A DNA stretch of 40,534 bases, from positions 1 to 40,534 of the forward strand of contig JAEFAM010000017.1 of NCBI GenBank assembly GCA_016287565.1, written 5' to 3'. The position numbers and the translations under genes were made by a program. The DNA is from Clostridia bacterium (lineage in GTDB: Bacteria > Bacillota > Clostridia > UBA1212 > UBA1255). Under the pieces are notes generated by a model. The model saw only the letters and a program-made list of their open reading frames with translations, had not been told where the DNA came from and did not search any database. This document shows positions 9,415 through 34,528 of this stretch, piece by piece. Positions within the stretch are counted from its first letter, which is position 1, and each line of letters starts with the position of its first letter.

Positions 9415-10713
9415 ATGAGCGACCCGATGATCAGAATCGAACACATATCCAAACAATACCGGCTGGGACAGATAGGCGGAACGACGCTGCGTGAGGAGCT
9501 GCAGAGGCTGGGCGCCCGGATCCGCCACAAGGAGGATCCCACGAAGCGCATAGGCGCCAGGTCCTACGAAAAAGGCGAGACGTTCCTGGCTCTCGACGAC
9601 GTGACTTTCGACGTCATGAGCGGCGAGCGGGTGGGCATCATCGGCAGAAACGGCGCCGGCAAGTCTACGCTGCTGAAGCTCATCTCCCGTGTCACGGCTC
9701 CCACCGGCGGCTCCATCGGGCTGAACGGACGGGTGGCGTCGATGCTGGAAGTCGGAACTGGATTCCACGGGGAATTGACGGGGCGAGAAAATATCTATAT
9801 GAACGGCGCCATCCTGGGTATGAGCAAGCGGGAGATCGATGCCAAAATGGAGGACATAATCGATTTCTCGGAGTGCCGCCAGTTTATTGACACGCCCGTA
9901 AAGCGATACTCCAGCGGAATGTACGTAAAGCTGGCATTCGCCGTTGCCGCGCACCTGGATTCCGAGATAATGATAATGGACGAGGTGCTGGCCGTGGGCG
10001 ACATGGCTTTCCAGAAGAAATGCCTTGACAAGATGAGCGACGTTTCCGCCACCCAGGGCAGGACGATCCTCTACGTGAGCCACAATATGAATACCATACG
10101 GCAGCTCTGCGACCGGTGCGTGGTGCTGGATCACGGCAAACTGGTGTACCACGGCGACGTGGAAGAGGCGATTAAGATCTATATGGATATCGGCGGCGCT
10201 TCTTTCAGCCGGGAGACCGACCTCACTGAGGCCCCGCGCAACCAGGGCATCTCCCGGAAGATACTGTTTACCGGTGCGGATATCAACAGGGACAACAACC
10301 TCTACACCTGCGAGGAGAGCATGCGCGTCTCCTTCGACATCGATTCCACCGTGGATTACGACGACGTGCGGCTGATGCTTATACTGTTTTATCAGGACGG
10401 CACCCGGATCGGCAAGACGGAATCCGGCAATTTCTCGGTGAAGAAAGGGGCCAATCGCGTGGAGGCCAGCGTGCCCTGCAGGGGCCTGGCGGACGGTTCC
10501 TATTATTTCGAGATCTCCATACTGCAGCGGAGCCATTCCTTCTCACGGGAGAAGTGCGACTCGATCCCCAACGTGCTGCCGTTCAATATAAGTAATCAGG
10601 CGGTGTTCGGGGTCAACGGCGGCAAGTGGTCCAGCAGGTACTGGGGGCATATAATGCTGGAGCCCACGGAAGTGGTGGCGGTCAATGGCGAAGCGGAGCC
10701 GGGGGATGAGTGA
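9415..10713 (+). CDS. ABC transporter ATPase for polysaccharide export with C-terminal Wzt-like domain
   Basis: A 432-residue ATPase partnering the permease at 6434. The nucleotide-binding domain (about 5-260) has Walker A GRNGAGKST, signature YSSGMYVKLAFAVA, Walker B IMIMDEVLAVGD and the switch His in LYVSHN. The stretch MLEVGTGFHGELTGRENIYM is diagnostic of the Wzt/TagH/RfbB group. The C-terminal region (about 270-430) is a beta-rich Wzt-type domain with SFDIDSTVDYDDVRLMLILF and LADGSYYFEISILQ, which in Wzt recognises the capped end of the glycan; such a domain suggests chain-length or terminus recognition. I start at the ATG giving MSDPMIRIEHISKQY; the ribosome binding site is weak. It is the last gene of the operon and is followed by a hairpin array. 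Confidence 0.93.
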   Translation: MSDPMIRIEHISKQYRLGQIGGTTLREELQRLGARIRHKEDPTKRIGARSYEKGETFLALDDVTFDVMSGERVGIIGRNGAGKSTLLKLISRVTAPTGGSIGLNGRVASMLEVGTGFHGELTGRENIYMNGAILGMSKREIDAKMEDIIDFSECRQFIDTPVKRYSSGMYVKLAFAVAAHLDSEIMIMDEVLAVGDMAFQKKCLDKMSDVSATQGRTILYVSHNMNTIRQLCDRCVVLDHGKLVYHGDVEEAIKIYMDIGGASFSRETDLTEAPRNQGISRKILFTGADINRDNNLYTCEESMRVSFDIDSTVDYDDVRLMLILFYQDGTRIGKTESGNFSVKKGANRVEASVPCRGLADGSYYFEISILQRSHSFSREKCDSIPNVLPFNISNQAVFGVNGGKWSSRYWGHIMLEPTEVVAVNGEAEPGDE

Positions 10714-10718
10714 TTTTG

Positions 10719-10891
10719 TTCGCTGACGCGAACAGCTAAATTGCGTGCAGAGCACGCAGCGAAATTGAAAGCCGGAGGCTTTCGGCGAAATGAAATATTC
10801 CACCGTTCGGCGAAGCCGAATTTAGCTCGACGAAGTCGAATTTAGCTCCGCGCAGCGGAATTTAGCTCGGGCGTCAGCACGAAGTTAGCTC
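10719..10891. repeat. Array of short hairpins with conserved linker (AATTTAGCTC type)
   Basis: Between the ATPase and the metallohydrolase genes lies a chain of small inverted repeats with different stems: TTCGC-tgac-GCGAA (10719-10732), GCGTGC-aga-GCACGC (10743-10757), GAAAGCC-gga-GGCTTTC (10767-10783), TTCGGC-gaa-GCCGAA (10806-10820), TCGAC-gaa-GTCGA (10827-10839), TCCGC-gca-GCGGA (10847-10859), and a degenerate last unit (about 10867-10882). The right-hand units are joined by AATTTAGCTC; the left-hand ones by its reverse complement form CAGCTAAATT. The outermost units are imperfect reverse complements of each other (GCTGACGC 10722-10729 versus GCGTCAGC 10871-10878). It is noncoding in all frames. 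Confidence 0.85.
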
Positions 10892-26712: not shown

Positions 26713-26938
26713 GTTGAACCCTGACGATCCCGCAAAACCGTCAGGGTTCAACATCACTCGCGCCCCAGCGCGAATATCACTGCCGCCTTGGGACGACTAT
26801 CACTGCCGCACCGCGGCAATATCACTACGCTTCAGGACGAATATCACTCGGCGCAGCCGAATATCACTCGCGCCCCAGCGCGAATATCACTGCCGCACCG
26901 CGGCAATATCACTGCGCGCAGCGCAATATCACTCTTCT
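26713..26938. repeat. Array of short hairpins with conserved linker (AATATCACT type)
   Basis: Between two convergent genes lies a chain of hairpins. A 14-bp perfect stem opens it: GTTGAACCCTGACG (26713-26726) with CGTCAGGGTTCAAC (26739-26752). Then follow, each separated by AATATCACT or a close variant: CGCGC-ccca-GCGCG (26759-26772), a degenerate GCCGCCTTGGGACGAC, GCCGC-acc-GCGGC (26805-26817), a degenerate ACGCTTCAGGACG, TCGGC-gca-GCCGA (26848-26860), CGCGC-ccca-GCGCG again (26869-26882), GCCGC-acc-GCGGC again (26892-26904) and GCGC-gca-GCGC (26914-26924). The architecture is that of the array at 10719-10891 but with a different linker. It is noncoding. Confidence 0.88.
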
Positions 26939-26951
26939 CCAGGCTCCATTT

Positions 26952-28040
26952 TCACACTTTGTAATACTCCTTATACCACTCGGCAAAGGCACGGAGCCCC
27001 TCGCGTATCCCGATCTTGGGAGTGAAGCCGTAATCCCGCTCCAGCGCCGCGGAATCTGCGTAAGTCACCGGCACGTCCCCGGGCTGCATGCCCACAAGCT
27101 CACGGTGCGCCTCAAAATCGTAATCCGCGCTCAGCACGCCGGCCCGGACAAGCTCCTCCTGGAGCGTTGCCACGTAATCCAGCAGGTTCTCGGGAGTGCC
27201 GCCGCCGATGTTGTACACGGCATAGGGAGGAACGGGCAGACCGTCGTTGCCCGGAGCCTTTTCGGGAGCGCCCTTCATCACCCGCAGCACGCCTTCCACG
27301 ATATCGTCTACGAACGTGAAATCACGCTGGCAGTTGCCGTAGTTGAATATCTTGATGGTGCCGCCTTTGGAGAGCGTGTCGGTGGCGGAGAAGTAGAACA
27401 TATCCGGGCGCCCGGCGGGACCGTAAACGGTGAAGAATCGGAGGCCGGTGGAAGGGATATTGTACAGTTTGGAATAGCTGTGAGCCAGGAGCTCGTTGCT
27501 CTTTTTCGTTGCCGCGTACAGCGAAACGGGGGTGTCAACCTTGTCGTCGGTGCTGAAGGGGACCTTTTTGTTTCCGCCGTAAACGGAGGAGGAAGATGCG
27601 TACACCAGATGCTCCACGCCTGTGCGGCCGTTGTCGTACGAATGGCGGCAGGCTTCCAGAATGTTGTAGAATCCGATGAGATTGCTCTCAATGTACACGT
27701 CGGGATGGTCGATGGAATAGCGCACTCCCGCCTGAGCGGCCAGGTTTACCACCACGGAGGGCTCGTATTCGGCGAAAACGCGGTCCACAAGGGCCTTGTC
27801 GCCTATGGAACCTTTAATGAACACGTGGCGTACGGGGGAGCGTTTCGCCGCCTCCTCGATGAGCCCCAGGCGGTACTCCTTCAACGCCGGATCGTAGTAG
27901 TCGTTCATATTGTCGAGGCTGATCACGGTGCCGCCGGTCAATTCTTTCAGTAGCCTTGTCACCAGATTCGCGCCCACGAAGCCGGGGGAGCCGGTGACGA
28001 GTATCACGCGGTCGTTTAGGTCAATTATCTTCTTTCCCAT
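26952..28040 (-). CDS. NAD-dependent epimerase, UDP-glucuronate 4-epimerase-like
   Basis: A 362-residue SDR-family nucleotide-sugar epimerase. The Rossmann motif is TGSPGFVGANLVTRLL (usual GxxGxxG form). The catalytic Ser/Tyr/Lys are in VYASSSSVYGGNKKVPF and SLYAATKKSNELLAHSY. DIVEGVLRVM and the C-terminal GFTPKIGIREGLRAFAEWY fit the UDP-GlcA 4-epimerase group. Together with the UDP-glucose dehydrogenase whose stop lies 2 bases upstream of this start, it would convert UDP-glucose to UDP-glucuronate and then UDP-galacturonate for surface polymer synthesis. I start at the ATG at 28040 (AGGAGGG, 7-base spacing); a TTG two codons earlier is also in frame. Specificity is inferred. Confidence 0.9.
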   Translation of the reverse strand: MGKKIIDLNDRVILVTGSPGFVGANLVTRLLKELTGGTVISLDNMNDYYDPALKEYRLGLIEEAAKRSPVRHVFIKGSIGDKALVDRVFAEYEPSVVVNLAAQAGVRYSIDHPDVYIESNLIGFYNILEACRHSYDNGRTGVEHLVYASSSSVYGGNKKVPFSTDDKVDTPVSLYAATKKSNELLAHSYSKLYNIPSTGLRFFTVYGPAGRPDMFYFSATDTLSKGGTIKIFNYGNCQRDFTFVDDIVEGVLRVMKGAPEKAPGNDGLPVPPYAVYNIGGGTPENLLDYVATLQEELVRAGVLSADYDFEAHRELVGMQPGDVPVTYADSAALERDYGFTPKIGIREGLRAFAEWYKEYYKV

Positions 28041-28042
28041 TT

Positions 28043-29581
28043 TCAATCCCTCCTGAACAGGTCGCGGGTGTAAACTTTATCTTCCACGTCTCCCAGCGCC
28101 TTCGCGTCGAATCGGTTGGCAAGGATCACGTCGGACTCCTCCTTGAACTTTTTAAGGTCGTTGACCACGCGGCTGCGGAAGAATTCGGAACCGTCTTCCA
28201 GCGTGGGTTCGTAGACGATGATGGGGATGCCCTTGGCCTTGATGCGCTTCATGACGCCCTGGATGGCGCTGGCGCGGAAATTGTCCGAATTGCTCTTCAT
28301 AGTCAGGCGGTACACGCCTACGGTCCTGGGGTTGCGGCAGATGATCTGGTCAGCGATGAAATCCTTGCGGACGCTGTTGCTCTTGACCACCGCCTCTATA
28401 AGGGTCTGAGGCACGTCTTTATAGTTGGCCAGCAGCTGCTTCGTGTCTTTGGGCAGGCAGTATCCGCCGTAGCCGAAGGAGGGGTTGTTGTAGTGGCCTC
28501 CGATGCGGGGGTCCATGCACACTCCGTCGATTATCATCTGCGTGTCAAGGCCTTTCGTCTGGGCGTAGGTGTCAAGCTCGTTGAAATACGAGACGCGCAC
28601 CGCCAGATACGTGTTGGCAAACAGTTTAATGGCTTCCGCTTCCGTGAGCCGCGTCAGCAGCACCGGTATGTCCTGTTCCGGCGCTCCGGAGCGTTTTTCT
28701 TCGGCCCTGGCGCCTTCCAGCAGCAGATCCGCGAACGTTTGCGCCTCGTCTCTCTGATTATCGCCGCAGCCCACAACAATGCGGCTGGGATGGAGATTGT
28801 CGTAGAGGGCCTTGGACTCGCGGAGAAATTCGGGGCTGAAAATGATATTGTCCGCGCCGTATTTTTTACGGACCGCTTCGGTGTAGCCCACGGGGATCGT
28901 GGATTTGATGACCATGAGGACGTTGGGATTGACCTTAAGCGTCCATTCGATGGCGTCTTCAACGGCGGAAGTGTCGAAGAAGTGGTTCACGTCGTCGTAA
29001 TTAGTGGGAGTGGCGATGATCACCAGGTCCGCGCTGCCGTAAGCCGCGGCTTTGTCGGTGGTGGTATGCAGGTTCAGCTTCCTGGTGCCTTCGCGGACTT
29101 CTTTGAAGAAACGCTCTATTTCCTCGTCCTGGATGGGGCTGATGAAGCGGTTCAGTTTCTCGGCTTTCGCTTCTGTGGTGGTTATGGCGGTTACTTCGTG
29201 GTTCTGGGCCAGCAGAACGGCAAGGGAGAGTCCGACGTAACCCACGCCGGCGACTGTTATTTTGAGGGGACGGGTGACTTTTCCGGCGCGGTCAACGGCT
29301 TCTTCCGCGGCGTCAACGGGGGAGGCGTTCTGCGAACTCCCGGAGCGCTCCTGAGAATCGGTGCGTGTATCGTCAACGAACATATCGGTGGCTTCGAAGC
29401 CCAGTATCTCTCCCAGCTTTTCCAGTTGCTCTACGGAAGGCACGTAGCCCCTGGATTCCAGCCGGGACAACATCCCCCTGTGGATCCCCGTGAGCGCGGA
29501 CAGCTCGGCCTGGGTCATTTTCAATTGTTTACGCCTCGCCACAACGGTTTCGGCCAGCAGCTCTGCAGACAGTTTTTTCAT
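28043..29581 (-). CDS. HTH (XRE-type) domain fused to UDP-glucose 6-dehydrogenase
   Basis: A 512-residue fusion. Residues about 5-68 form an XRE-type helix-turn-helix ([40 protein letters not shown]). Residues about 70-104 are a polar linker. The rest is a HasB/Cap3A-type UDP-glucose dehydrogenase of about 405 residues, with NAD site [14 protein letters not shown], a TPTNYDD segment, [20 protein letters not shown] and the catalytic Cys375 in [20 protein letters not shown]. It should make UDP-glucuronate by two NAD-dependent oxidations. All visible catalytic motifs are intact. The HTH suggests the enzyme may also bind DNA, perhaps its own promoter, where a perfect 16-bp palindrome covers the -35 (29714-29729). 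It forms an operon with the downstream epimerase. Confidence 0.92.
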
Positions 29582-30358: not shown

Positions 30359-33300
30359 ATGAAAAGGAAAGCGTCGTTAATTCTCATCTGCATATTGATT
30401 CTATTCCTCGCCAGTTGCTCGGCTGATAGTAGCACAGAGTCTATTCCATCAGGCTCAACATCTACTGTAAGTCCATTGATTAATGAAGTAACCTCCGAAC
30501 CTTCTACGCCTTCTCCAGAGCCGTCCAATAATCATGTTCATGTCTTTGATGAATGGATAATGGTATCAAATCCAACAGAAGACGAACCGGGTTTAATGGA
30601 GCGAATCTGTCTTACTTGTGATTACAAAGAAACTCAGGAAATACCTAAATTATCACATATCCATCAATATTCCAGCACCTGGTTAAATGACGATAATCAG
30701 CACTGGCTTGTCTGTTCATGTGGTGAAAAGGATTCGGTAGCCAATCATACATTTGATGAATGGGTCATCGTCAAAGAAGCGACTGATACTACTACCGGTA
30801 TTCGCGAGCGAGCTTGCCTCGTATGTAGTTACAAACAAACAGAAGCCATTCCGCTCCTTTCACACACTCATTCCTTCGAGGAAATATGGCACAATGACAT
30901 CAACCAGCACTGGCACGAATGCACATGTGGTGAAAAAGATTCTATAGCAAATCATATTTACGGAGAATGGATCACGACTAAGGAAGCAACTGAATCTTCG
31001 AGCGGCTTGCGCGAGCATTCTTGTGCTATTTGTGGTTATACGCAGAGTGAAGTTATACCCAAATTATCACATATACACTCTTTCTCAAACAATTGGTCAT
31101 ACGATGTGAACCAACACTGGCATATCTGTTCCTGTGGAACTAAAGACTCTTTAGCAAACCATACATATGGGGAATGGATCACTACTAAAGAAGCAACCGA
31201 ATCATCGAGCGGCCTGCGCGAACATTCATGTGCTATTTGTGGTTATACACAGAGTGAAGTCATACCCAAATTATCACATGTACATTCTTTCTCTGCAAAT
31301 TGGTCTTATGATAGCAATCAACATTGGCATATTTGTTCCTGCGGAACTAAAGACTCAGTTGCGAACCATACATATGGTGAGTGGGTCACTACTAAAGAAG
31401 CCACTGAATTTTCGACCGGCTTGCGAGAGCATTCATGTGCTATTTGTGGTTATACCCAGAGTGAACTTATTCCCCAATTAACACATACTCACTCTTACTC
31501 TGTTGACTGGATATATGATGAGAATCAACATTGGCATACCTGTTCATGTGGATCAAAAGGATCAACTGCAAACCATACATATGGGGAATGGATCACTACT
31601 CTAGAAGCAACCGAATCCTCAAGCGGATTGCGAGAACATTCGTGTGCTATTTGTGGCTATACTCAGAGTGAAGTTTTACCAAAATTAACACATACACATT
31701 CTTTCACAGACAATTGGTCATATGATGAATATGTTCACTGGCACGAATGTTCTTGTGGTGAGATAAACTATATTGAGGCTCATACATATGGAGAGTGGAT
31801 AATAGTCCAGGAAGCAACTGAAGATTCAAATGGCCTGCGCGAGCATTATTGCACACTTTGTGGATATATTCAAAGTGAAGTTATTCCAAAATTAGCACAC
31901 ATACATTCTTTCTCCGAAAATTGGTTATATGATGAATCTGTTCACTGGCGCGAATGCTCATGTGGTGCAAAAGACTATATTTACGGTCATACATACGGAG
32001 ATTGGGAAACGACAATAGAACCCACGGAAAATAATACAGGGCTTAAAGAGCGAACTTGTAATGTATGCCATTATTCCGAAACATCAATTATTGATAAACT
32101 TCCACCAACCTATTCAATTCAATACATTCTAAATGGAGGTCAAAATTCAGAAAACAACCCCGCCTCAATAAGAAATGTAGATTGGGTTGTTTTATCTCCG
32201 GCATCGAAGATTGGCGCACAGTTCATTGGGTGGTATTTAGATGAAAATCATACTCAAAAGATTACTTTGCTGACAGATGTTTCATCTAATATTGTTTTAT
32301 ATGCATATTATAAAGACTTATCGTACCCCATTCACTACCATTCGAACGGTGGCGTAAACTCTTTAGAGAATCCACATTCTATAAAGTATGGTGATAGAAT
32401 AACATTAAAAAAAGCAACAAAAACAGGGTATACATTTAATGGTTGGTTTAGCGATGAGAATTTTAACACACCTGTAACAGTTTTAGAAAAATCCACATCC
32501 GCTATTGATTTATATGCTAAATACACCCCAAAATCTTTTGGCATAAATCTAGATGCGAATGGCGGTTATTTTAATAACGAATCTAATCAAGCAGAATCGT
32601 TTCTATCATTAACAGTCAGGTATGATAGCAAATATGTTTTGCCTATTCCTTCTAGGGATGATTATATATTTGTAAAATGGGTTGATCCAAAAGGCACAAC
32701 TTATTCGAGCGGTATATGGCAAAATATCACTGATGTCAATTTGACGGCAATTTGGGAGTACATTGTTCCTCCTACAGAATTAGCTTTTTCTTTATCAAAA
32801 GACGGCACATATTATATTGTTACAGGTTTAGGCGATTGTAAGGAAAAAGATATAAGTATTCCCTCAATACATAACGGATTGCCAGTAAATGAGATTGGAG
32901 AAAAAGCATTTGAATTCACTGATATTAGGTCAGTTATTATTCCAGATTCCATCATTAAAGTGGGTAACAGTGTTTTTTATGGCTGTTCAAACCTTGAACG
33001 TATGATACTACCATTTATTGGGCTACCGCAATATTCTTCGCATTATTTAAAAGATTTTTTTAGATATTATGATTATCATACGAGTCGGTGGGTTTATGAT
33101 GTACCACTATCACTGAAGACCATTATTCTTACTAAAAATGTTACAAGCATAGATAACAGTGCGTTTTCTGGTTGCACAGGGCTCACAGAAATAGTTATTC
33201 CGGACAGCGTGACAAGCATAGGAAAGTATGCTTTCGAATACTGCAATGGACTTACCAGTGTTAAAATTGGAAATGGTGTAACAACCATCGGTGATATGGC

Positions 33301-34528
33301 ATTTTGGGGTTGTTCAGGCCTCACAGAAATAATTATTCCAGACAGCGTGACAAGCATAGGCAATAGTGCGTTTAATGGTTGCACAGGCCTTGTCAATGTA
33401 ATAATCGGCGATGGTGTCACATCGTTTGGCTATGCTATCTTTAAAGATTGCAAAAATATAGAAAGCCTGACTTTACCATTTATTAAAAGTCCGTATTCTG
33501 TGTCTTCATCCAACACGTACTACACATCATATTTGGGAGGTATGTTTGGAGCTCCTACTTCTGGTCAAAACAGAAGCTACGTTTCCGGGAAACTAAAAAC
33601 AGTAACTCTGACTAAAGCAACAACAATAGGTTATGGAGCATTTGAAGGATGTTCTAGCATCCAAAAGATTATATTGCCTAATACTATTACAAAAATCGGT
33701 GGATACGCATTCGCCAGGTGCACAGGTCTAACAGAAATAATAATACCAGAAAGCGTGACAAGCATAGACGACGGTGCGTTTAATGATTGCGACGGGCTCA
33801 CGGAAATAATTATTCCGGACAGTGTTACAAACATAGGAATGTATGCTTTCCAATACTGCAATGGACTTACCAGTGTTAAAATTGGAAATGGTGTAACAAC
33901 CATCGGTGATATGGCATTTTGGGGTTGTTCAGGCCTCACAGAAATAATTATTCCGGACAGTGTGACGAAAATGGATGGTAGAGGGTTTGTTGGTTGCTCG
34001 AATCTTGAAAGTATTACAATCCCGTTTGGCAGTATTTTCCCTTTGTTTGATAATGATGTTCCGGAATCACTTAAAACAGTTATTTTTTCTAGCAATGTTA
34101 CGAGTATAGATAGTGTTCGTGGTCCAAGCATTAAAGAGGTTATAATTCCAGAGAGTGTAACGAGCATAGGCAACAACGCGTTTCAAGATTGCACTGGTCT
34201 TACAGAGATAACGATACCAAACAGTGTAACGAGTATAGGTAATTATGCATTTTCTGGTTGCACCGGACTAACAGAGATAATAATTCCAAACAATGTAACG
34301 ACTATAGGCCAGTACGCGTTTTGGAAATGTTCGAATCTTGTAAGAATAATTATACCAAACAGCGTAACAAGTATAGGCCAGTATGCCATTATGGACTGCC
34401 CGAATTTTGCTGATATCTTCTACCTTGGCACTGTATCTCAATGGTGTGCTATCCGTTTCACGCGTTGCTGGGATGGATCTTCTGTTGGATCATCATCAAA
34501 ATATAATATTCACTATTTGAATAATTAA
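30359..34528 (+). CDS. BspA-like leucine-rich-repeat surface lipoprotein with Cys/His repeats
   Basis: A 1389-residue predicted lipoprotein: signal peptide with lipobox LASC (Cys20), Ser/Thr/Pro linker (21-58), one partial and seven full 69-residue repeats (59-583), three InlB/Flg_new-type beta repeats (about 584-800; for example ITLKKATKTGYTFNGWFSDE), then BspA/TpLRR-type LRRs to about residue 1380 (units such as VTSIGNSAFNGCTGLTEIII). The end FYLGTVSQWCAIRF...YNIHYLNN is typical for these LRR proteins. LRR and InlB modules usually bind proteins or host surfaces. DNA is strikingly AT-rich compared with the flanking genes, and the gene sits with an IS256 remnant, so it was probably acquired by transfer. 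RBS is AGAAGGG. There is no sortase signal; the lipid anchors it. Confidence 0.93.
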   Translation: MKRKASLILICILILFLASCSADSSTESIPSGSTSTVSPLINEVTSEPSTPSPEPSNNHVHVFDEWIMVSNPTEDEPGLMERICLTCDYKETQEIPKLSHIHQYSSTWLNDDNQHWLVCSCGEKDSVANHTFDEWVIVKEATDTTTGIRERACLVCSYKQTEAIPLLSHTHSFEEIWHNDINQHWHECTCGEKDSIANHIYGEWITTKEATESSSGLREHSCAICGYTQSEVIPKLSHIHSFSNNWSYDVNQHWHICSCGTKDSLANHTYGEWITTKEATESSSGLREHSCAICGYTQSEVIPKLSHVHSFSANWSYDSNQHWHICSCGTKDSVANHTYGEWVTTKEATEFSTGLREHSCAICGYTQSELIPQLTHTHSYSVDWIYDENQHWHTCSCGSKGSTANHTYGEWITTLEATESSSGLREHSCAICGYTQSEVLPKLTHTHSFTDNWSYDEYVHWHECSCGEINYIEAHTYGEWIIVQEATEDSNGLREHYCTLCGYIQSEVIPKLAHIHSFSENWLYDESVHWRECSCGAKDYIYGHTYGDWETTIEPTENNTGLKERTCNVCHYSETSIIDKLPPTYSIQYILNGGQNSENNPASIRNVDWVVLSPASKIGAQFIGWYLDENHTQKITLLTDVSSNIVLYAYYKDLSYPIHYHSNGGVNSLENPHSIKYGDRITLKKATKTGYTFNGWFSDENFNTPVTVLEKSTSAIDLYAKYTPKSFGINLDANGGYFNNESNQAESFLSLTVRYDSKYVLPIPSRDDYIFVKWVDPKGTTYSSGIWQNITDVNLTAIWEYIVPPTELAFSLSKDGTYYIVTGLGDCKEKDISIPSIHNGLPVNEIGEKAFEFTDIRSVIIPDSIIKVGNSVFYGCSNLERMILPFIGLPQYSSHYLKDFFRYYDYHTSRWVYDVPLSLKTIILTKNVTSIDNSAFSGCTGLTEIVIPDSVTSIGKYAFEYCNGLTSVKIGNGVTTIGDMAFWGCSGLTEIIIPDSVTSIGNSAFNGCTGLVNVIIGDGVTSFGYAIFKDCKNIESLTLPFIKSPYSVSSSNTYYTSYLGGMFGAPTSGQNRSYVSGKLKTVTLTKATTIGYGAFEGCSSIQKIILPNTITKIGGYAFARCTGLTEIIIPESVTSIDDGAFNDCDGLTEIIIPDSVTNIGMYAFQYCNGLTSVKIGNGVTTIGDMAFWGCSGLTEIIIPDSVTKMDGRGFVGCSNLESITIPFGSIFPLFDNDVPESLKTVIFSSNVTSIDSVRGPSIKEVIIPESVTSIGNNAFQDCTGLTEITIPNSVTSIGNYAFSGCTGLTEIIIPNNVTTIGQYAFWKCSNLVRIIIPNSVTSIGQYAIMDCPNFADIFYLGTVSQWCAIRFTRCWDGSSVGSSSKYNIHYLNN
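30533..32107 (+). repeat. Seven tandem 69-residue Cys/His repeats (207 bp) plus a partial copy
   Basis: Residues 59-100 are a half copy; full copies begin at residues 101, 170, 239, 308, 377, 446 and 515. The consensus is H-x-HSF...W-x-YD...HWHxCSCG...NHTYGEW...EATExSxGLREHxCxxCGY...IPKLxH. Each copy has four Cys (CxC and CxxC) and several His. Copies 2-5 are nearly identical at the DNA level, which points to recent expansion. Spacing is exactly 69 residues throughout, with no insertions. Confidence 0.92.

Follow-up and report, generated by a model that had tools for sequence, protein, structure and literature searches.

What kind of element keeps its linker constant and lets its hairpin stems vary, and yet preserves the pairing within each stem? 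The question is posed by a short array at positions 26713-26938 of the window, the 40,534-nt stretch of a Clostridia bacterium genome (contig JAEFAM010000017.1) that we analyzed here. On the minus strand, eight mini-hairpin units alternate with 9-base linkers of the AGTGATATT type, and a 14-bp hairpin closes the run. The outer perfect stems, in minus-strand order, measure 4, 5, 5, 4, 0, 5, 0, and 5 bp, so that six of the eight units are perfect and two are degenerate; when letters were shuffled within each unit (20,000 trials), at most three of the eight units had a 4-bp stem, versus the six observed. All of the linkers are 9 bases long, and two are one-base variants (AACATCACT and ACTATCACT on the plus strand). 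Stem count and shuffling thus confirm the description, in an earlier note made from the sequence, of six perfect and two degenerate mini-hairpins on a constant 9-base linker, and the 14-bp perfect stem said to open the array is present as well. Hairpins similar to this terminal one, GAACCCTGAC..GTCAGGGTTC, end or interrupt other arrays of the same genome (L009, L013, L025, and L038). The array likely lies between convergent gene ends, as the note had it: the right-hand end, that of an epimerase gene, is clear, but the left-hand gene is uncertain, that flank consisting of two overlapping ORFs on opposite strands, the plus-strand one of which has no Pfam match. A large gene for a BspA-type leucine-rich-repeat surface protein is found nearby (30359-34528), and we saw no relation between it and the array. 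The features of the window are as follows.

26713..26938, minus strand: whole array, a one-sided copy of a Gut-1 type element (eight units, linkers, terminal hairpin)
26713..26752, unstranded: terminal hairpin, 14-bp perfect stem (26713-26726 / 26739-26752), 12-nt loop
26750..26758, minus strand: linker 1, variant, AACATCACT on the plus strand
26759..26772, unstranded: hairpin unit CGCGCCCCAGCGCG, 5-bp stem
26773..26781, minus strand: linker 2, AATATCACT
26782..26795, unstranded: degenerate unit GCCGCCTTGGGACG
26796..26804, minus strand: linker 3, variant, ACTATCACT
26805..26817, unstranded: hairpin unit GCCGCACCGCGGC, 5-bp stem
26818..26826, minus strand: linker 4, AATATCACT
26827..26839, unstranded: degenerate unit ACGCTTCAGGACG
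26840..26848, minus strand: linker 5, AATATCACT
26849..26859, unstranded: hairpin unit CGGCGCAGCCG, 4-bp stem
26860..26868, minus strand: linker 6, AATATCACT
26869..26882, unstranded: hairpin unit CGCGCCCCAGCGCG, 5-bp stem
26883..26891, minus strand: linker 7, AATATCACT
26892..26904, unstranded: hairpin unit GCCGCACCGCGGC, 5-bp stem
26905..26913, minus strand: linker 8, AATATCACT
26914..26924, unstranded: hairpin unit GCGCGCAGCGC, 4-bp stem
26925..26933, minus strand: linker 9, AATATCACT
26814..26892, minus strand: match to Rfam RF01706 (Gut-1), full model length, 58.3 bits (gathering score 50)
26952..28046, minus strand: NAD-dependent epimerase/dehydratase gene (PF01370), 3' end at the array; context, outside the element
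10709..10867, unstranded: another element of the family, smaller and with AGCTAAATT type words (three linkers forward, a short centre, and three reversed)

Family membership and anatomy of the intact element

The earlier note knew of no named family for this array, but it has one: Rfam's Gut-1, which the array matches above the gathering score. Weinberg et al. (2010, PMC2864571) described Gut-1 as a probable noncoding RNA, seen at that time in human gut DNA alone. Our literature search on Gut-1 RNA returned that paper only, and a search with the linker letters returned only primers and unrelated sequences. The published human-only range does not hold, as the array pattern is present in gut assemblies of goat, sheep, cattle, deer, yak, and buffalo. 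Matches to the pattern also occur in records labelled Bacteroidetes and Psychrobacter (L128 and L131), for which transfer, binning error, or chance are possible. Within its own lineage the family is patchy: the window genome holds 95 Gut-1 matches, in dozens of intergenic clusters, and we found zero to four in each of six genus sisters and zero to three in each of nine further family members, a distribution that is a poor fit to a housekeeping RNA. The Rfam family and the window array have hairpins and UGAWAU-type linkers in common. They differ in extent, as the RF01706 model covers only ~77 nt, part of one half of a symmetric element; here it is part of such an element, dispersed, found in Clostridia from many animal guts, and often beside an IVP gene.

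That symmetry is visible in the orientation of neighbouring linker runs in the clusters of the window genome, where 73 pairs face inward, 5 face outward, and 6 point in the same direction. In other Clostridia the element takes the form of a compact unit of ~170 bp, in which some four linkers with their hairpins are followed by a centre ending in GGCGAATAnAAT and then by some four hairpins with the linker reversed. The array had been taken as the unit; intact copies instead consist of two half-arrays inverted about a centre, often with a gene alongside, and the window array is one-sided. The constancy that had been claimed for the linker holds within one type and fails across related elements, which use other linker words.

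We aligned 45 full elements over ~170 nt and obtained 38 consensus pairs, with 98.3% of cells paired and 21 pairs changed on both sides. The covariation score of this alignment is 0.446; shuffles give 0.114 +/- 0.008, and slid controls do not exceed 0.083. Besides the local hairpins, the first linker and the first hairpin arm pair with the centre in a long-range helix, at whose variable position the 45 elements carry A-U (20), U-A (15), C-G (8), one mismatch, and one U-G. Because pairs are kept, compensatory changes are found, and the long-range helix exchanges A-U, U-A, and C-G, the pairing is very likely under selection in full elements. Single units tell the same story: outer pairs match at 0.87 among 166 distinct units of the window genome, versus 0.55 with arms shuffled, and at 0.90 among 295 units of other genomes, versus 0.39, so that the earlier observation of stems that vary while their pairing stays is borne out well beyond the window. 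The arrays of the window genome reach 25 linkers, with visible internal duplications of unit blocks (L011 and L038), and units duplicated in tandem have added to their length.

Linkage to IVP genes and parallel descent of word and protein

One array pair of the window genome (L040) encloses a 122-codon ORF that encodes a 23S_rRNA_IVP / four helix bundle protein, with profile scores of 93.8 bits for PF05635 (cut-off 33.8) and 107 bits for TIGR02436 (cut-off 24). The second IVP gene of this genome (L149, G000:C49:46004-46312) stands between inverted plain-word ATGGCAAATTG arrays without hairpins. The window copy at 26713-26938 contains no IVP/S23 (PF05635) ORF, although its sister copy L040 does. 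In several other array pairs of the same genome, the two arrays flank a noncoding core built of ~83-bp tandem repeats, and every repeat contains a large hairpin, AACGCCC..GGGCGTT (L025 3377-3661 and L038 3558-3920; comparable cores, 446-548 bp long, in L010, L013, L018, L024, and L037).

The association extends across the class. In a fixed sample of 291 of its genomes, an IVP gene is present in 89 and Gut-1 in 49; IVP occurs in 41 of the 49 genomes with Gut-1, leaving 8 with no IVP match, versus 48 of the 242 without (p=2e-17, uncorrected for relatedness). By coordinates alone, at least 11 genomes of this sample have a Gut-1 match and an IVP gene no more than ~0.5 kb apart. When the flanks are read, many IVP genes are found to stand just after a hairpin array with its own linker word (AGTGATATT, AGCTAAATT, RTGAAAT, RTGATGTT, RTGAAGT, ATATCGA, GCGATAT, ATGATAT, or ATGAATT); others stand between plain inverted word arrays without hairpins. 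The IVP start lies at a constant position outside the last word. In a blind word test that scored the best 7-mer within 300 nt upstream, 24 of 63 IVP genes had four or more copies of it, versus 3 of 82 other ORFs (upstream and downstream together, Mann-Whitney p 4e-8); the 24 of 63 is no population estimate, since the loci were partly picked from Gut-1 genomes. At one locus (L104, 4697-5099 in minus-strand coordinates), an in-frame stop breaks the IVP gene beside an intact array, so IVP decay occurs there. We found no report in the open-access literature that joins IVP genes with hairpin arrays, or Gut-1 with IVP.

Word and protein also descend in parallel. On a maximum-likelihood tree of 55 IVPs, the 14 word labels require 14 changes, where the minimum is 13 and the shuffled mean is 40.4. 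The IVPs that accompany hairpin arrays all fall in a single clade of 43 (100/98), and sister types on the tree are AGTGATATT and AGCTAAATT, ATATCGA and GCGATAT, and RTGATGTT and two of the three RTGAAGT rows. Twenty further IVP loci were labelled, nine by a word list fixed beforehand and 11 by eye, three of the 11 being plain words. IVP clades mix host families, and single genomes hold several matched pairs of word and IVP. That word labels track the IVP tree across mixed hosts shows that array and IVP gene travel as one element. The same pattern fits an IVP that recognizes the word; parallel descent would also follow from physical linkage alone, without binding. The two IVPs of the window genome are of the AGCTAAATT type and the plain-word type, and the window array, of the AGTGATATT type, has no IVP of the matching clade; likewise, a second genome (G150) has many RTGAAAT arrays, yet no RTGAAAT IVP among its seven IVPs. 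Strict dependence on an IVP in trans is thus unsupported.

Dispersal and comparison with known systems

Copies of the family are found at unrelated sites. One genome (G269) holds two 284-bp copies without an ORF, 97.9% identical, at such sites. In SIG642, a noncoding repeat of a few hundred base pairs has nine copies with differing flanks (loci named L057, L062, L064, L072, L085, L102, L110, and L114); the repeat has a half-array at one of its ends and, past it, conserved sequence. Two 416-bp copies, 97% identical and ~3.3 kb apart, occur in G228:C36 (L278 and L279), where the copied part reaches upstream beyond the element. We found no match to the array in phage records and four loci among 2.9 million viral contigs, so the family is not mainly phage-borne. 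Neither a target-site duplication nor a clean empty site was found. In two sister species, the orthologues of the window epimerase have no array after the gene; the far flank is not syntenic there, which leaves the insertion ends at the window locus undefined. The selfish element that the earlier note had listed among its possibilities is the best reading of such dispersed, near-identical copies at unrelated sites. We propose, at a probability of roughly 0.6 and having counted against it the metagenome assemblies among the genomes behind the family evidence, that the window array is a non-autonomous, one-sided copy of an IVP-linked mobile-element family, whose IVP would present the folded array to an enzyme supplied by the host.

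Gut-1 could instead be what it was first taken for, a stand-alone noncoding RNA gene, whose regulatory or sponge product exposes repeated single-stranded words between hairpins as CsrB-type decoys do. Rfam classes Gut-1 as an sRNA gene, its covariation is strong, and stems of the right half show an excess of G.T over A.C mismatches (16:3, p=0.004). This excess fits RNA-level selection on the IVP-sense strand, which neither the left half (4:7) nor the window genome (13:12) shows; the right-half bias was not replicated in the RTGAAAT class, where the test is without power. An RNA gene is unlikely, however, to reach 95 matches in one genome, be nearly absent from its sisters, and have many copies at unrelated sites, and its linker word would not be expected to change among lineages together with an adjacent protein gene.

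Where the elements sit bears on a further alternative. Fourteen of 65 canonical elements follow a same-strand tRNA gene and start 25-38 nt past its 3' end; at none of the 65 was a tRNA gene found on the opposite strand or downstream. A perfect hairpin of at least 6 bp abuts 49 of the 65 (3.8% at random places), with a T-tract in 25. Termination was rejected as the sole role, because the arrays stand outside this terminator-like hairpin. The arrays could, however, have pre-existed in bidirectional termination or insulation, with IVP elements inserting into them or riding on them as cargo and the IVP itself unneeded. Arrays without an IVP do outnumber those with one, terminator-like hairpins abut most canonical elements, and arrays and IVPs that do not match coexist in the window genome and in G150. 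Independent insertion would not, on the other hand, produce an almost one-to-one relation between word type and IVP clade at 55 loci in many host families, nor does it sit well with an IVP start held constant outside the last word, and we regard cargo status as improbable.

A third alternative, already weak, would make the family REP/REPIN-like, with a Y1 (TnpA/RAYT) transposase that works on single-stranded hairpins as its mover. Like REP/BIME and REPINs, the arrays are dispersed intergenic hairpins and presumably non-autonomous, with constant flanks, and the window genome has three Y1_Tnp genes. None of these three is framed by words, whereas IVP genes are; the array has variable stems and constant linkers, and its companion is an IVP gene and not a Y1 transposase. 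To our knowledge, the array words do not fit the REP pattern, and we consider this origin very unlikely. CRISPR arrays consist of constant repeats of ~23-47 nt and unique, non-palindromic spacers. Here the constant part is 9 nt and the variable parts are 11-14 nt, palindromic, and in some cases recurrent within the array, so that CRISPR was rejected too and the layout is, as had been noted, unlike either system. Least probable of all is replication slippage with template switching at quasi-palindromes, with no element or function, which the unit-block duplications and the lack of strand bias among window-genome mismatches would suit and which could explain the growth of single arrays like that of the window, but which is contradicted for full elements by position-specific hairpins, a conserved long-range helix, a four-plus-four architecture in many genomes, and the IVP linkage.

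Among the known systems close to an IVP-linked mobile element are the intervening sequences of 23S rRNA, which share with it the IVP/S23 protein family, inverted flanks, short words before the ORF, a patchy distribution, and suspected mobility. In one genome (G234:C1, L230 and L231), identical IVP genes are framed by inverted GTTAGAAG words; we take the surrounding sequence to be 23S rRNA, so that this looks like a classical intervening sequence with a word-array layout. In the 23S rRNA intervening sequence of Coxiella, three GACAGAT heptamers stand before the S23p ORF (PMC4990558). Intervening sequences lie inside rRNA helices, from which RNase III removes them, whereas Gut-1 elements stand between genes, often after tRNA genes, carry hairpin arrays, and mostly lack an ORF. 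As to inverted ends, the family shows inverted half-arrays and the window copy is one-sided; being intergenic beside an epimerase gene and without an IVP ORF, that copy was rejected as a 23S rRNA intervening sequence. Reports on mitochondrial double-hairpin elements, which have two hairpins per unit, and on repetitive hairpin elements describe these as short and dispersed and treat them as mobile (e.g., PMC7218506, PMC2800124); they are organellar and resemble the array by analogy only.

A possible mechanism and its meaning

The predicted structure of the IVP (pLDDT 95) matches the S23-family structures 2rld (Z 21.8) and 2gsc (Z 17.2) and, at ~15% identity, Avd of diversity-generating retroelements (8ub8, the retroelement reverse-transcriptase RNP, Z 15.1; 4dwl, Z 14.1; the Avd entries are 4DWL and 8UB7/8UB8). 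The resemblance to Avd is suggestive only: unrelated helical bundles reach Z values of up to ~13-14, so the match leans also on the published homology of the IVP/S23 and Avd families (PMC10053308). The partnership of Avd with structured RNA nevertheless provides a model for how an IVP-linked element might move. The intact element would consist of two inverted half-arrays of a 9-base word and a variable mini-hairpin around a centre, with some copies then carrying a gene for a four-helix-bundle IVP of the 23S-rRNA intervening-sequence family (PF05635/TIGR02436). The IVP would recognize the folded word array, more likely as RNA than as single-stranded DNA, and hand it to an enzyme that it does not itself encode, that of the host, much as Avd serves the reverse transcriptase of diversity-generating retroelements. 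Where an IVP is missing, a copy may be a relic, or something else may move it, be it an IVP in trans or other factors. From the likeness of the IVP to Avd, an RNA- and RT-binding subunit, we infer by analogy that movement proceeds through folded RNA. Diversity-generating retroelements place an Avd-like protein beside a reverse transcriptase with template and variable repeats; no adjacent reverse transcriptase was found for the elements described here, and the window array was rejected as a diversity-generating retroelement, as the sole RVT_1 gene of the genome is on another contig with no words around it.

A bolder extension, which is possible but which we regard as doubtful, would cast IVPs as the factor that acts in trans for small mobile elements of a broad class, each protein lineage with a word of its own. 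Gut-1 arrays, plain word arrays, and 23S rRNA intervening sequences would all be members, and the class would move via folded RNA and a borrowed reverse transcriptase, as Avd-dependent retroelements do.

Gut-1 was known already as an RNA family; what is new, on our best reading, is that its array is part of a symmetric, IVP-linked element. Gut-1 has stood as an orphan among RNA families since 2010, and the mobility and function of rRNA intervening sequences and of their S23/IVP proteins are likewise questions of long standing. Matched lineages of word and protein tie Gut-1 and the IVPs into a single testable system with a shared explanation. If this is true, short words and self-pairing spacers would make up a new sort of small mobile element, spread across many families of Clostridia.
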